Positions 29,031 through 37,031 of a DNA stretch of 37,031 nucleotides are shown one piece after another. The DNA is from Cytophagaceae bacterium (GTDB lineage Bacteria > Bacteroidota > Bacteroidia > Cytophagales > UBA9547), in assembly GCA_027488865.1 (NCBI GenBank), contig JAIYAU010000038.1, positions 1 to 37,031 of the forward strand, in the 5' to 3' direction. How positions within the stretch are numbered: the stretch's first letter is position 1; every line of letters starts with the position of its first letter. A program made the translations under genes and the position numbers. The notes under the pieces are model-generated. The model had not been told where the DNA came from. It worked only from the letters and a program-made list of their open reading frames with translations, and did no database searches.

Positions 29031-31562
29031 ATGAATGCAATCAACTTTAGAAAATCACTTATTTGCTTGGCATTATTAATAGGAGTTATTAATTACCAAT
29101 CTCAAGCACAAACCAATCCAGAAGTGACGGTAGACCAAATTTTAATCAATAACATTGGTAGTCCTTGGTCCTTAACGTTTTTAAATAATGATGAAATTCT
29201 TTTTACAGAACGAAGTGGTAATATAAGACGACACAATATGTTGACCAACACCACCGTAGCTATTACTGGTGGGCCAACTGTTGCGCAAGTGGGCCAAGGT
29301 GGTTTGCTAGATATCGTGCTTCATCCTAATTTTAGAACAAATAATTTAGTGTACCTATCTTACGCCGTAGCAGTTACGGGCGGGCAAACACTTGCCATCG
29401 GGCGAGGTACTTTGGTAGGAAATGCCTTACAAAATTTTACCCAAATATTTTCAGCGCTTCCAATAGTTAATTCTGGTCAGCATTTTGGCTCCAGGATCGC
29501 GTTTGATAGAAATAATTTTCTTTATTTCTCAGTGGGTGATAGAGGTACGCCATCCAACGCACAAGACAGAAACAATCATGCAGGTAAGGTAATGCGCTTA
29601 AATGATGACGGTACAGTACCTGCCGACAATCCATTTGTGGGCGTAGCAAACACAAGACCAGAAATTTTTTCTTTTGGCCACAGAAACATTCAAGGCATGG
29701 CGATGAACCCAGCCAATGGACTTATATATGCACACGAGCATGGCCCTAGAGGAGGAGATGAACTTAATGTAATTAAAAGAGGCGCAAATTATGGCTGGCC
29801 TTTGGTAACTTTTGGCATTGACTATAATGGAACGATCATTTCTGAAGACACTGCAAGACCTGGCCTTGAACCACCCTTGACTTATTGGGTACCTTCTATT
29901 GCCCCTAGTGGAATGGTATTTGTGCAAAATAACCAAGCCCCAAATGAAGCAGATATATTAATTGGAGCCTTGGCGGGCACTCATTTACATTGGCTAAAAA
30001 TGAGTAATGACCAGGTAGTTGTAGCTTCAAGAAACGCAGGGGGTTATGCCCGTTTTAGAGATGTAAGACAAGCCCCAGATGGCAGGTTGTATGCCCTTAC
30101 GGAAACTCCCAACAGATTAATAAGATTAAGAACAAACGTCACACTTCCGCCAATTGGTATCAGTTGCCGCGTGCCTAACTTAGGCAATGATATCTCCATT
30201 TGTGGTAGTACTGGCAATGTTACGCTCAATGCTGGACTTACAGCAACCAATAGGACATTTAGCTGGGAGCGAAATGGATTGCCAGTAACTGGCAACTTAC
30301 CAACCCTAGCCATTAACACAGGAGGAACCTACACCGTATTTGTCGATTCTGCAGGCTGCAAAAGACAAGAAGAAATTGTGGTTTCCACTGTGTTATCTTC
30401 TCCTAATCTTGGTATGGATGCTGACTTGTGTAATCCCGCTACTTTAACACTTGATGCTGGCGTAAGCGGAACAGGAATTTCATATCTATGGAGACGCAAC
30501 TCCGTAAGCTTAGCAACTACTACACAAACCATTAATATTTCACAAGCAGGTACTTATAGTGTAACCTTGAATGCAAGCAATTGTGCTCCTAGGTCCGACA
30601 CTGTTGTCATTACCTCATCTCTTCCATCAGTAGTTGGTGATACCCTCTGTCTTCCTGGCACAGCCCAATTAAGTGCCATAGGAACAGGCCCTTTTAATTG
30701 GTATAGCCAATTATTGGGTGGAACTTCTTTGGCTACCTCCTCTACTTATTCGCCAGAAATTACTGCTACCGCTACCTTTTATGTTCAAGCTACTCCGGGC
30801 ACCAATTATACCTATGGCCCAAGCAACAGAGGAACCAACCCATGGGATTTAGGTGGAAATGACTTTGCCACAAATGATAAGGGATTGGTAATAGCTGCAC
30901 TTGCTAATACTATACTTGAAAAACTTGATGTAGACCCTCAAAGCGGAGCACAAACGGTTACAATTAATGTGACAGATCTTTCAAATAACACTGTCGTGCG
31001 AACTGTTACTCAAGCCATAAGTTCGTCTTTTAGTACCATTAATATAGGAGCAAGCCTTACTAGTGGAAAATCTTATAGAATAGATGCTGTGGGTACGACA
31101 GGTCAACTTTATTTTAGAAATCAAGGAGGTGTTTTATGGCCACAAACAGTGGCTGATGTAGCAACTATTCGCGCGAATGATGGGGTCACTTGGGCTAACT
31201 CTTGGAGTTTGTTTTATAACCTAGTTGTTTCTACAGGAAAAGCATGTAGTAGAATTCCGGTGGTTGCGGCAATTACATCATGCCAACCTTTGGCAATTGA
31301 ATCTGTAGGTACAGAAGAGGGCTCAGATTCAGAATTAAATATTTATCCTAATCCATTTGAAAATAGTTTCAAAATCAATTTGGGAGACACTAAAAACGAG
31401 ATTAACAGAATTGATATACTTAAAACAGATGGTCAATTACTCCAATCTTTCACCCATAATTTACCAACCGAAATTGGACAAGGCTTGGCAAATGGAACCT
31501 ACTTTGTTAAAATTATTAAAAACAACAAGGTTTACGTAAGACAAATCGTGAAAATTAAATAA
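29031..31562 (+). CDS. Secreted PQQ-type sugar dehydrogenase (GSDH fold) with Ig-like and T9SS sorting domains
   Basis: After a signal peptide (ending QSQAQ), residues 30-375 form a six-bladed propeller of the soluble glucose/aldose dehydrogenase family: GSPWSLTFLNND, GQHFGSRIAFD with the likely catalytic His, YFSVGDRG, FSFGHRNIQG and HEHGPRGGDELN. Two Ig-like modules follow (about 378-530, each beginning NLG), then a third strand-rich region, and a T9SS type A sorting domain (LNIYPNPFENSFKI to the end). Family members oxidise the C1 of aldoses with PQQ and calcium. The extra domains indicate display or release at the cell surface by T9SS. Sugar specificity is unknown. The terminator hairpin overlaps its stop codon. 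Confidence 0.9.
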   Translation: MNAINFRKSLICLALLIGVINYQSQAQTNPEVTVDQILINNIGSPWSLTFLNNDEILFTERSGNIRRHNMLTNTTVAITGGPTVAQVGQGGLLDIVLHPNFRTNNLVYLSYAVAVTGGQTLAIGRGTLVGNALQNFTQIFSALPIVNSGQHFGSRIAFDRNNFLYFSVGDRGTPSNAQDRNNHAGKVMRLNDDGTVPADNPFVGVANTRPEIFSFGHRNIQGMAMNPANGLIYAHEHGPRGGDELNVIKRGANYGWPLVTFGIDYNGTIISEDTARPGLEPPLTYWVPSIAPSGMVFVQNNQAPNEADILIGALAGTHLHWLKMSNDQVVVASRNAGGYARFRDVRQAPDGRLYALTETPNRLIRLRTNVTLPPIGISCRVPNLGNDISICGSTGNVTLNAGLTATNRTFSWERNGLPVTGNLPTLAINTGGTYTVFVDSAGCKRQEEIVVSTVLSSPNLGMDADLCNPATLTLDAGVSGTGISYLWRRNSVSLATTTQTINISQAGTYSVTLNASNCAPRSDTVVITSSLPSVVGDTLCLPGTAQLSAIGTGPFNWYSQLLGGTSLATSSTYSPEITATATFYVQATPGTNYTYGPSNRGTNPWDLGGNDFATNDKGLVIAALANTILEKLDVDPQSGAQTVTINVTDLSNNTVVRTVTQAISSSFSTINIGASLTSGKSYRIDAVGTTGQLYFRNQGGVLWPQTVADVATIRANDGVTWANSWSLFYNLVVSTGKACSRIPVVAAITSCQPLAIESVGTEEGSDSELNIYPNPFENSFKINLGDTKNEINRIDILKTDGQLLQSFTHNLPTEIGQGLANGTYFVKIIKNNKVYVRQIVKIK

Positions 31563-31609
31563 ATTTCCTATCCTTATTATTGACTTGTAATAAGGATAGG
31601 AAATTTATT
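31558..31609 (+). terminator. 22-bp perfect hairpin overlapping the stop codon
   Basis: The stem 31558-31579 pairs without mismatch with 31588-31609 around the loop TTGACTTG. It includes the TAA stop codon of the sugar dehydrogenase gene. The following sequence is T/A-rich (TATTCTATTTAAT at the 3' side begins inside the stem). Confidence 0.8.
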
Positions 31610-31744
31610 CTATTTAATGCAATAAGGGATTTAACACTCAAAATCAATTTGTCGTCATTTTTCCATAACTATCAACTTAGAATTGCACTATTTAGATAAA
31701 ATGAGATAATTGTAAAATGAAATTTTACTCTTGAGTTAAGGATT

Positions 31745-31913
31745 GGCCATGAATAAAATGCTTTAAGAATTTCAAGGAGTGGAGCGATTAAGAAATGTTA
31801 GTTGTTTGAGTGCGAGGAACGAATCGCGAGTTTCAAACATTTCCGGCGTAACGTAATGAAATTTAGCATTTTATTCATAGCCTTTACTTTTTGTGTTAAA
31901 ACAAAAAGTAAAG
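31745..31913. repeat. Nested palindromic element, about 170 bp
   Basis: ATGAATAAAATGCT (31749-31762) pairs with AGCATTTTATTCAT (31865-31878) as an outer stem, extended by GGC/GCC. Inside it, GAAAT and GTTTGA pair with TCAAAC and ATTTC, and GCGA pairs with TCGC at the tip. A second hairpin follows, CTTTACTTTTTG (31882-31893) with CAAAAAGTAAAG (31902-31913). It is non-coding and GC-richer at its core than the surroundings. I recall similar elements dispersed in other Bacteroidota genomes, but only one copy is in this window. It lies in the 443-base space between convergent genes; a further short inverted repeat TTTCAATTG/CAATTGAAA is at 31935-31971. Confidence 0.7.
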
Positions 31914-32005
31914 AAATCTAATTGACCTATATAGTTTCAATTGAATATTTATATTATTCAAACAATTGAAATTTTTCTAATGCATAAAATGGGATAAATA
32001 GTCTA

Positions 32006-32710
32006 CTAGTCATCATCCCTTCTACCTAAGAAGATCATTACATAATAGGCCAAGTTAGCTAAAGCACCCAATGCAGAAACTACATAAGTTAATGCAGCCC
32101 ATTTTAAAGCATCTTTGGACAAAGCATATTCGCTAGAATTTACAATTCTTTTGTTTGAAATCCATTCTAAAGCTCTACGGCTTGCATCAAACTCTACAGG
32201 TAATGTCACTAGGGAAAACAAAGTTATAACACCATTTAGTGCTATTAAAATTAGCAAAAGGGTGTCTCCAGCCCCTCCTTTAGAATAGAATAGGTATCCA
32301 GCACCAAACAGCAACGCCATGTTTATGTATTGTAATACAGTAGAACTTACGTTTACTACTGGCACCATGGCTGATCTAAATTCTAACATACTGTAAGCGG
32401 TAGCATGCTGCACTGCGTGACCACACTCATGAGAGGATACAGCTGCCGCAGCCGCATTTCGTCCGTGATACACTGCAGAACTTAAATTTACCGTTTTATC
32501 TGCTGGGTTATAATGGTCGGTAAGTTGACCTTCTACACAAATAACTCTCACATCTCTAATTCCACTGTCACGTAACATTTGCTCCGCTATTTCTCTGCCC
32601 GATAAGTTGGACTGTAAAGGGGTAAGCGAATATTCCTCAAACTTCTTTTTTAACCTCCAGCTTACAAACATACCAATAAGCATAAAAGCAATACCAATAA
32701 TGAATATCAT
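32006..32710 (-). CDS. YugP-like membrane zinc metallopeptidase
   Basis: The 234-residue protein has an N-terminal membrane helix (1-18), a zinc-binding HECGH motif (His94, Glu95, His98), NPADKTVNLSSAVYHGRN before it, two or three membrane helices (about 115-170) and a further EFDASRRA with a candidate third ligand, then a C-terminal helix. This is the Zn_peptidase_2 (YugP) family pattern, and length agrees. The active site faces the cytosol or the membrane surface; substrates are unknown. The gene stands alone, convergent to the sugar dehydrogenase gene. Confidence 0.93.
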   Translation of the reverse strand: MIFIIGIAFMLIGMFVSWRLKKKFEEYSLTPLQSNLSGREIAEQMLRDSGIRDVRVICVEGQLTDHYNPADKTVNLSSAVYHGRNAAAAAVSSHECGHAVQHATAYSMLEFRSAMVPVVNVSSTVLQYINMALLFGAGYLFYSKGGAGDTLLLILIALNGVITLFSLVTLPVEFDASRRALEWISNKRIVNSSEYALSKDALKWAALTYVVSALGALANLAYYVMIFLGRRDDD

Positions 32711-35305: not shown

Positions 35306-37031
35306 ATGAAATATTTACTCTCACCACTGCCGTTAGTATTATTATCCTTTCTATTAGTAAAAAGCATTCAAGCACAATTTCTATGCCAACCAGTTGGTTG
35401 GGCCACCGAATATGGCACAGTAAATGGAGGCGGTAATGTAACACCTGAAATCGTGACAAGCTATAACGATTTAAGAACCAAGGCAACAAATTCTACTTCT
35501 AAAGTAATACATATTCAAGGCACGATTACCTTTCCTGCCAATGGAAGAATAAATATAAGTAGTGTTATTGGAAAAACCATCTTTGGATTGCCAGGTTCAA
35601 AGTTAGTTTCAACAGATCAAACAGCCTCAGGATCAGGAATATTTTATGTAAAGGATTCAAGGAATGTCATTTTTAGAAATATCACATTTGAAGGACCTGG
35701 AGCCTATGATGTAGATGGTAACGATCACATGACACTTGACAATTGCCAAGGTATTTGGGTTGATCATTGCGATTTTCAAGATGGAGTTGACGGCAACTTT
35801 GATATTAAAAATGCCTCAGATTTTATCACAGCAACCTATTGTAAATTTGGTTATGTGAAACCTCCACGTGCGGGTGGTCCAGGTGGTGCTGATGACCATA
35901 GATTTACAAGTTTATTTGGTTCTTCTGATAATGCTACAGGAGATAGAGGAAAGTTAAGAGTTACTATGCAATATTGTTGGTGGGCACAAGGTTGTCGCGA
36001 AAGAATGCCGAGGGTTAGGTTTGGAAAAATACATATGGTTAACAACCTTTTTAATAGTACCGTTGCTAATCATTGCATTAGAGCAGGATTTGAGGCAGAT
36101 ATATTAGTTGAGAGTAATGTTTTTGAAAATGTCGCAAGGCCAATAGATTTGTTTAATAATGACTTTACAGCTGTTACTGCTAGAAACAATATTTTTACCA
36201 ATACATCTGGAAATACTGTAGGTAGTCGCACCTCATTTACTCCTCCATATCTATTAACAATTATGCCAGCAGCGCAGATAAAATCATGGGTTTCTACTCA
36301 TGCTGGAGCTACATTAACTAGTACGAGTTGTGGAACAACTACGAATCAAAACCCTACTGTTTCAATTACCGCACCGAGTAACGCAGCTAGAATTTGCATA
36401 GGAAGCACGTTAACTATTAATGCAACCGCAATGGATAATGATGGAACAATTAGCAAGGTGGATTTTTACAATGGATCAAGCTTGATAGGAACAGATAATT
36501 CTGAGCCGTTTTCAATAGGATTTACACCTTCGAGTTTATCAAATTTATCATTAACTGCCGTTGCCACAGATAATGGGGGTGCTACAGGTTCTTCTGCTGC
36601 TGTAACAGTAACTGTAAATCCATTGCCTACAGCCACCATCTCCACCACCACCCCAACCACCTTTTGCCAAGGCGGAAGTGTAGTGTTAACAGCAAGTGCA
36701 GGCACTTCATACATTTGGAGAAATGGAAATACCATTTTAGCCACAACCACCCAAACGCACACTGCCAATGCAGCTGGTACATACACAGTAGAAGTTACCA
36801 ATGCAAATGGTTGTAAAGCAACATCAGCTGCTACCACAGTAAATGTAAATCCATTGCCAACTGCAACCATCTCTACCACCACCCCAACCACCTTTTGCCA
36901 AGGCGGAAGTGTAGTATTAACAGCAAGTGCAGGAACTTCATATATTTGGAGAAATGGAAATACAACATTAAGCACTACTGCTCAAACGCACACTGCCAAT
37001 GCAGCTGGTACATACACAGTAGAAGTTACGA
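35306..37031 (+). CDS. Pectate lyase (PL1 family), C-terminus beyond the window
   Basis: The frame from ATG 35306 stays open for 575 codons to the window edge. After a signal peptide (ending SIQAQ) comes a right-handed beta-helix of the PL1 type: VIHIQGTITFP, NVIFRNITFEGP, GIWVDHCDFQDGVDG, and the catalytic RxPxxR motif as RMPRVR followed by FGKIHMVNNLF. It should cleave polygalacturonate by calcium-dependent beta-elimination outside the cell. An Ig-like domain (about 350-438) with VDFYNGSSLIGTD is followed by at least two 77-residue Ig-like repeats from residue 439. A T9SS sorting domain is expected past the edge. It lies 17 bases after another T9SS cargo gene. Confidence 0.9.
   Translation, partial: MKYLLSPLPLVLLSFLLVKSIQAQFLCQPVGWATEYGTVNGGGNVTPEIVTSYNDLRTKATNSTSKVIHIQGTITFPANGRINISSVIGKTIFGLPGSKLVSTDQTASGSGIFYVKDSRNVIFRNITFEGPGAYDVDGNDHMTLDNCQGIWVDHCDFQDGVDGNFDIKNASDFITATYCKFGYVKPPRAGGPGGADDHRFTSLFGSSDNATGDRGKLRVTMQYCWWAQGCRERMPRVRFGKIHMVNNLFNSTVANHCIRAGFEADILVESNVFENVARPIDLFNNDFTAVTARNNIFTNTSGNTVGSRTSFTPPYLLTIMPAAQIKSWVSTHAGATLTSTSCGTTTNQNPTVSITAPSNAARICIGSTLTINATAMDNDGTISKVDFYNGSSLIGTDNSEPFSIGFTPSSLSNLSLTAVATDNGGATGSSAAVTVTVNPLPTATISTTTPTTFCQGGSVVLTASAGTSYIWRNGNTILATTTQTHTANAAGTYTVEVTNANGCKATSAATTVNVNPLPTATISTTTPTTFCQGGSVVLTASAGTSYIWRNGNTTLSTTAQTHTANAAGTYTVEVT
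36620..37031 (+). repeat. Near-identical 231-bp tandem repeats inside the pectate lyase gene
   Basis: Unit 1 spans 36620-36850 and unit 2 starts at 36851 and is cut by the window edge. They differ at roughly 15 of the 180 comparable bases. Each encodes a 77-residue Ig-like module (TFCQGG, GTSYIWRNGNT, AGTYTVEVT). The closeness at DNA level suggests recent duplication, so copy number may vary. Confidence 0.88.

Follow-up and report, generated by a model that had tools for sequence, protein, structure and literature searches.

A conserved folded core found between the ends of unlike transposase families in Bacteroidota

Background

What defines a MITE is its pair of ends, and the sequence between them is usually filler. 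The locus described here raises the question of what kind of element carries a long, nested palindrome in the spacer between two convergent genes of a Cytophagaceae bacterium. It lies in a 37,031-nucleotide stretch of contig JAIYAU010000038.1 (GenBank assembly GCA_027488865.1), to which we refer in full as the window. A sequence-only reading of this DNA placed the palindrome at 31745-31913, thought it too long and too ordered for a simple terminator, and offered a dispersed, non-autonomous repeat of the REP or MITE kind, or a structured RNA, as candidate identities. Here we report that this stretch belongs to a conserved folded module that in Bacteroidota lies between ends from unlike families of transposase, and that can also stand bare.

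A folded element between convergent genes

The pairing that had been described is borne out: a perfect 14-bp outer stem (31749-31762 with 31865-31878, read from the window letters) encloses inner pairings, lies inside a 25-nt pair (31738-31762 with 31865-31889, 84% complementary) and is followed by a separate hairpin at 31882-31913, whose 16-nt arms are 94% complementary. The segment 31735-31923 has a minimum free energy of -56 kcal/mol on the forward and -50.1 kcal/mol on the reverse strand, with fold z scores of -6.02 and -7.56; on neither strand did any of 200 shuffles fold as well, and the tail-hairpin pattern occurs once within the window against 0 expected. The spacer is indeed convergent, between an ORF at 29031-31562 on the forward strand and one at 32006-32710 on the reverse strand. 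The nearest relatives of the latter are labelled Runella, Lacihabitans and Flammeovirgaceae, and all 80 relatives kept from named genomes carry Bacteroidota names.

Hairpins placed between convergent genes would suit a bidirectional transcription terminator serving both of them. An intrinsic terminator scan of 31480-32060 found only the hairpin at 31560-31607, with no site in 31745-31913, and copies of the element are dispersed; we regard this reading as scarcely credible, and the view that the stretch is not a simple terminator stands. The terminator-like hairpin shares its 3' side with the left end of the element (Table 1).

Elsewhere in the window, 1321-1396 and 2332-2407 match group II introns (RF00029, 43.1 and 58.1 bits) within repeats spaced about 1 kb at the contig start, and two 221-nt direct repeats, 87% alike, occupy 36578-37029 at the contig end.

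Table 1. Parts of the window copy and the hairpin beside it (positions in the window)
Feature	Position	Strand	Basis
Terminator-like hairpin after upstream gene, outside the element	31552-31615 (hairpin 31560-31607)	+	Terminator scan; inverted repeat
Left terminal inverted repeat, decayed (ATTTATTCTATTTAATGCAATA)	31603-31624	+	Pairs with 31978-31999 (22 nt, 82% complementary); compared with left ends of other copies
Left arm	31625-31744	+	So far own genome only; no ORF of 80 aa or more
Core, nested stem: GGCC...GCC and inner stems	31745-31881	+	Pairing, fold z, counterpart in other genera
Core, tail hairpin	31882-31913	+	Inverted-repeat pairing; R1 match at 31861-31913, 39.3 bits
Right arm	31914-31977	+	So far own genome only
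Right terminal inverted repeat (ATCCCATTTTATGCATTA on the reverse strand, 31978-31995)	31978-31999	-	0 mismatches to the 18-base pattern

The repeated unit in its own genome

The repeated unit is longer than the stretch first noted: it spans about 31603-31999 and has terminal inverted repeats (TIRs), and 31745-31913 is its core. Queried with 31738-31913, the own genome shows seven strong places, the query itself among them, and a full copy, C23, used as query gave 21 matches at 19 places, the window included and many of them partial; the element is therefore not single-copy, and its pairing is conserved in relatives. The query itself aside, these matches are 71-91% identical to the C23 copy (71% for window positions 31612-31916), and the similarity between own copies runs past 31745-31913 to a AAYCCATTTTATGCATTA-type inverted repeat at both ends. 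Some copies are internal deletions, such as the 126-bp unit at C61:13668-13793. TIR-like sites with up to 3 mismatches number 46 forward and 43 reverse in this genome, against 26 and 20 for a backward control pattern.

Pairing of the TIR-like sites by eye at IS spacing revealed no transposase framed by two TIRs in the own draft genome, and none was seen in eight TIR loci in which ORFs were named by eye, without a family search (L043, L044, L046, L053, L055, L056, L058 and L061). Candidate nuclease ORFs at L043 (G000:C14:171619-174636), which we take to resemble an Rpn-type PD-(D/E)XK nuclease gene, have a TIR-like site at their end.

The window copy is about 11 nt shorter before the tail hairpin than its sister copies, and has thereby lost a complementarity between loop and upstream sequence that is described below. 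Its flanks, read by eye, hold no recognisable target duplication. Because of these two features we consider the copy to be probably old and immobile; it looks dead.

Ends around the core in related genomes

The family target duplications are 8 bp for IS1595 and TA for IS630. In genome G131, ten of the at least 40 copies were examined; they carry TIRs of the form TAGGRTTACCC... with TAGGRTTACCCATTTA-type ends, and the nine that were measured are 369-383 bp long. Target duplications of 8 bp are exact at nine of these loci and agree at 7 of 8 bases at the tenth, compared with 4/90 pairs at 7/8 or better in a cross-locus control, the right-end patterns having been fitted to the copies examined. 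One transposase-bearing partner was examined in this genome, a 997-bp element with ends as in the core copies and an 8-bp duplication, TAAAGTTT. A 227-aa ORF in it matches DDE_Tnp_IS1595 (PF12762, 2.7e-12) and gives a sub-threshold match to the IS1595 zinc ribbon. Further downstream, a 74-aa ORF resembles the last part of PF12762, again below cut-off; each of the two ORFs holds part of PF12762, so the transposase frame is interrupted. A scan with R1, a covariance model of the right arm and tail that sees the tail side only, found no core tail in the 997-bp element.

Other ends surround the core elsewhere. Copies in G120 and G143 with both ends found are 386-432 bp long and end in (TA)CAYTGTAAACTAA. 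In G120 a CAYTGTAAACTAA-type TIR also flanks two 1175-bp elements with one DDE_3 ORF each (PF13358; 9e-24 and 4.5e-23), and the one that was scanned has an HTH ORF upstream of it; these elements are of the IS630 type. At 20 loci of G120 and G143, TA adjoins the left TIR of the MITE copies in 10/13 and the right TIR in 8/14, each denominator being the copies where that TIR was found. A 5-bp target duplication in these two genomes (CTTAC, CTTAA) was replaced by TA, given the IS630-type partner. G164 has yet other ends, CTGASTATCCGC, with a repeat of about 9 bp in L339 (read by eye). In G357, the ends of nine out of ten fetched copies were examined, and these copies have no arms: unlike flanks stand directly at both core ends, dissimilar sequence starting ahead of GGCC and past the tail hairpin, and no direct repeat of more than 5 bases is shared near the ends.

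An automatic scan of 62 loci for TIRs with target duplications recovered known ends in just three, L206, L269 and L271. Apart from these, a score of at least 17 was reached solely by L213 (17, its shuffles reaching 15), so few lineages have a known type of vehicle. L307 and L309, considered as MITEs with a swapped interior, were rejected as such, since both retain the core tail; they are MITEs with another IS inside (DDE_Tnp_1; DDE_Tnp_ISL3).

Judged by these relatives, the assignment of the outer layer to the MITEs is probably right. The proposal of a dispersed non-autonomous repeat of this kind is supported by the 19 places and TIRs in the own genome together with the 8-bp duplications and the like-ended transposase element of G131.

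A rather unlikely alternative is one old MITE family whose ends drifted along with the transposase, the core being an interior that never changed vehicle. It would account for ACCCATTT, which own-genome and G131 ends have in common, and for the layout, alike in the own genome, G131 and G143, of a left arm of about 100-150 bp, core, and right arm of about 80-90 bp. It fits poorly with ends of the IS1595 type (8 bp) in G131 and of the IS630 type (TA) in G120, and with the bare cores of G357. MITE interiors normally drift faster than ends; here the core is kept and the ends vary, the reverse of the usual drift.

Distribution across Bacteroidota

At the level of the family, 5/10 genomes match, the own genome included, and the other four share the inner part only. 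What relatives have in common is an architecture of about 165-220 bp with two hairpin modules: GGCCT..., nested stems, ...CAGCC, TTGAN, a T-rich linker and the tail hairpin, in differing letters. With R1 at E<=1e-3, matches occur in 52/148 genomes and 34/80 genera of the order, and at E<=1e-4 in 76/296 sampled Bacteroidota genomes and 40/140 genera, in two overlapping samples that both count the own genome. In R1 matches L207 and L209 the nested stem is not evident.

Copy number varies widely, from no core match to at least 144 per genome within one order: there are at least 144 core copies in G143, 141 in G120, 58 in G164, 40 in G131, 35 in G312 and 18 in G357. Same-direction tandem arrays, spaced about 290-470 bp, occur in some genomes. 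Among 80 named Bacteroidota loci sampled around another gene (513 kb), R1 at E<=0.01 gave one match, and plasmid sequences gave one weak match, in Persicobacter, with 27% of the query covered. Core tails were also seen on contigs labelled as viral, namely L374 (IMGVR_UViG_2881247448_000001, with four tails), L373 and L375. At least 35 are present in G072, a genome of 1.0 Mb from family f21 that, from its size, possibly belongs to an endosymbiont. Among the matches listed in literature on REP/RAYT, MITEs and intergenic repeats of Bacteroidetes, we found no published description of the core repeat.

Conservation of the fold

The fold covaries across relatives, with its clearest signal in the tail and a weaker one in the outer stem. 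When a single core per genome was folded on one strand for 56 genomes, with 25 shuffles for each and the window copy left out, the median fold z was -3.5, with 34 at or below -3 and 12 above -2. In an arm-swap test, a genome's own right arm paired with the upstream region at a mean of -19.2 kcal/mol and the arms of other genomes at -13.5. The own outer arm was the best of 56 partners in 14/56 genomes, was among the top three in 30 and beat its own shuffles at z < -3 in 22/56; as AT-rich arms also cross-pair, this test supports the outer stem moderately.

In the tail, the 6-nt hairpin loop N-TCAAG is complementary to CTTGA-N directly upstream. The variable loop pair is matched in 51/54 genomes, as T-A in 34, C-G in 11 and A-T in 6, and unmatched in 3. 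Across 34 distinct rows covering the tail stem and the loop/upstream pairs, 98.9% of cells are paired and the covariation score is 0.346, versus 0.095 (sd 0.014) in shuffles (0/500) and at most 0.079 in slid versions, to be read with the provision that strings were chosen for a paired stem, with extra weight on CAAG or TAAG loops: the 100% pairing of the tail stem carries no meaning, since it was selected for, and loop-pairing covariation rests on one column, the variable loop pair, which alone is free of that choice. Five pairs changed on both sides (equalled by 42/500 shuffles), and there are 15 further pair types (equalled by 12/500). The outcome that the sequence-only reading had named as a refutation, a lone copy whose pairing relatives do not conserve, did not arise.

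As the loop leaves no nucleotide unpaired, there seems to be too little room for a simple pseudoknot; the pairing may form between copies or belong to an alternative fold, and an inverted repeat in DNA that a protein recognises would fit the covariation as well. In G164 (L330-L342) a second, inverted tail-like hairpin has the loop CCGGCA and, alongside, the matching changed complement TGCC (by eye), as though the pairing had moved to a new loop sequence.

Covarying pairs are also what one would expect if the core were a structured RNA or a 3'-UTR element that serves the cell and that mobile elements merely spread, and the flanking genes lend this idea some substance. At 111 loci the neighbours, in core orientation, are ++ in 44, +- in 31, -- in 22 and -+ in 14, the left one thus pointing into the core in 75/111; counted by genome, the left gene is mostly directed toward the core in 34/52 and away in 18/52. 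Loci of one genome are not independent. Three orthologous sites were recovered among the fetched loci. At L201/L202 the core is identical at 166/167 positions (173/175 with wider bounds), versus 92-96% for the flanks and lower values for the arms, and this one site of the three suggests constraint on the core at a fixed position. At L205/L256 (G143 and G120) the left arm is identical too (190/190), which fits gene conversion or recent transfer, with 102/110 in the right arm and 91 and 95% in the flanks; the cores differ in an apical hairpin, which one species carries in the opposite orientation between short inverted repeats belonging to the hairpin, and are otherwise the same up to the tail hairpin. 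At L174/L175 core (85%) and flanks (79-82%) differ alike.

Against a cellular RNA stand the tandem arrays, copy numbers that range so widely among genomes of one order, and the L205/L256 site, where more than the core is preserved. Equal covariation would be yielded by DNA-level selection for mobility. Nor is there an Rfam family to which the core belongs: Rfam 15 gave no match in the element at the gathering threshold, and relaxed thresholds gave only sub-gathering matches to unrelated families in the element and in 12 relatives' loci. A role of this kind may exist, and we consider it improbable.

REP-associated transposases

The hairpins, the intergenic position and the absence of a visible target duplication at bare copies are reminiscent of REP-type elements moved by a REP-associated tyrosine transposase, which the sequence-only reading had named as a gene to look for. 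The own genome has ten Y1_Tnp matches, and at one of them (L030, G000:C40:198264-201530) the Y1 transposase gene starts directly after 46 bp of the right end of the element; this gene has an in-frame stop and its own, different palindromes (TTCGGAATT...AATTCCGAA). Among 40 Y1_Tnp loci, made up of the ten own ones and 30 of the 75 matches from 20 other genomes, 0/40 had a core tail within about 1.5 kb (E < 0.01), so that no linked gene emerged. Y1_Tnp genes are nearly as common in genomes without the core (8/10) as in those with it (10/10). REP elements are given as 20-40 bp in one account (PMC3733652), and the core, with its greater length and two hairpin modules, is no single palindrome of that size. 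The REP half of the earlier proposal is accordingly regarded as highly improbable.

A proposed two-layer mobile element

The explanation that we favour, and hold to be rather likely, is that the copy in the window is old and probably immobile, and represents a non-autonomous mobile element of two layers, made of vehicle ends and a conserved core. The outer layer would comprise the TIRs and arms, roughly 80-150 bp per side, and would in relatives be the ends of a separate DDE-transposase element, whose transposase would cut these ends and join them in trans. The inner layer would be the core, the nested stem plus tail hairpin common to many Bacteroidota, flanked by ends of the IS1595 type, the IS630 type or at least one other type, and left bare in one genome. 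IS1595- and IS630-type transposases would move the elements, the core would pass from one vehicle to another, and its fold would be kept because it is copied or recognised as a single strand, as hairpin DNA or RNA, by some factor. No factor moving the core alone was found in this analysis.

Going further, and only tentatively, the core may be an independent non-autonomous genetic parasite widespread in Bacteroidota, one that takes a single-stranded folded form, jumps between transposon vehicles, uses the loop and CTTGA-N as a recognition code and depends on a widely conserved driving factor. For such a parasite of MITEs, the complementarity of N-TCAAG and CTTGA-N could operate between a pair of copies, or serve as a switch while copying takes place.

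In Bacteroidota the core interior is kept across the phylum while ends and transposases differ. If the proposed reading is true, the inside of a transposon can itself be a mobile module under selection, and a Bacteroidota repeat that is common and has no Rfam 15 match gains a model and a testable mechanism.

Comparison with known systems

Ends of the IS200/IS605 type form single-strand hairpins that base-pair with a nearby short motif through a guide at their foot. The core hairpin is likewise complementary to a nearby motif, but via its loop, and no Y1 gene is linked to it. With REP elements, or BIMEs, and their RAYTs it shares many intergenic palindromic copies and tandem arrays; it differs in its length of 165-220 bp and in lying inside TIR elements, and no RAYT association was found.

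A MITE from the same phylum, that of Cardinium, is derived from IS982 and is reported to occur in that strain only (PMC9769881). It resembles the present elements in being a MITE and is set apart from them, by that description only, through its parent IS982.

The closest likeness is to MITEs of IS1595 and IS630, which are similarly short and non-coding, with TIRs as in a transposase element of the same genome and, as seen here in relatives, duplications of 8 bp or TA. What distinguishes the elements reported here is that the folded interior, not the ends, is conserved across vehicles with different ends.
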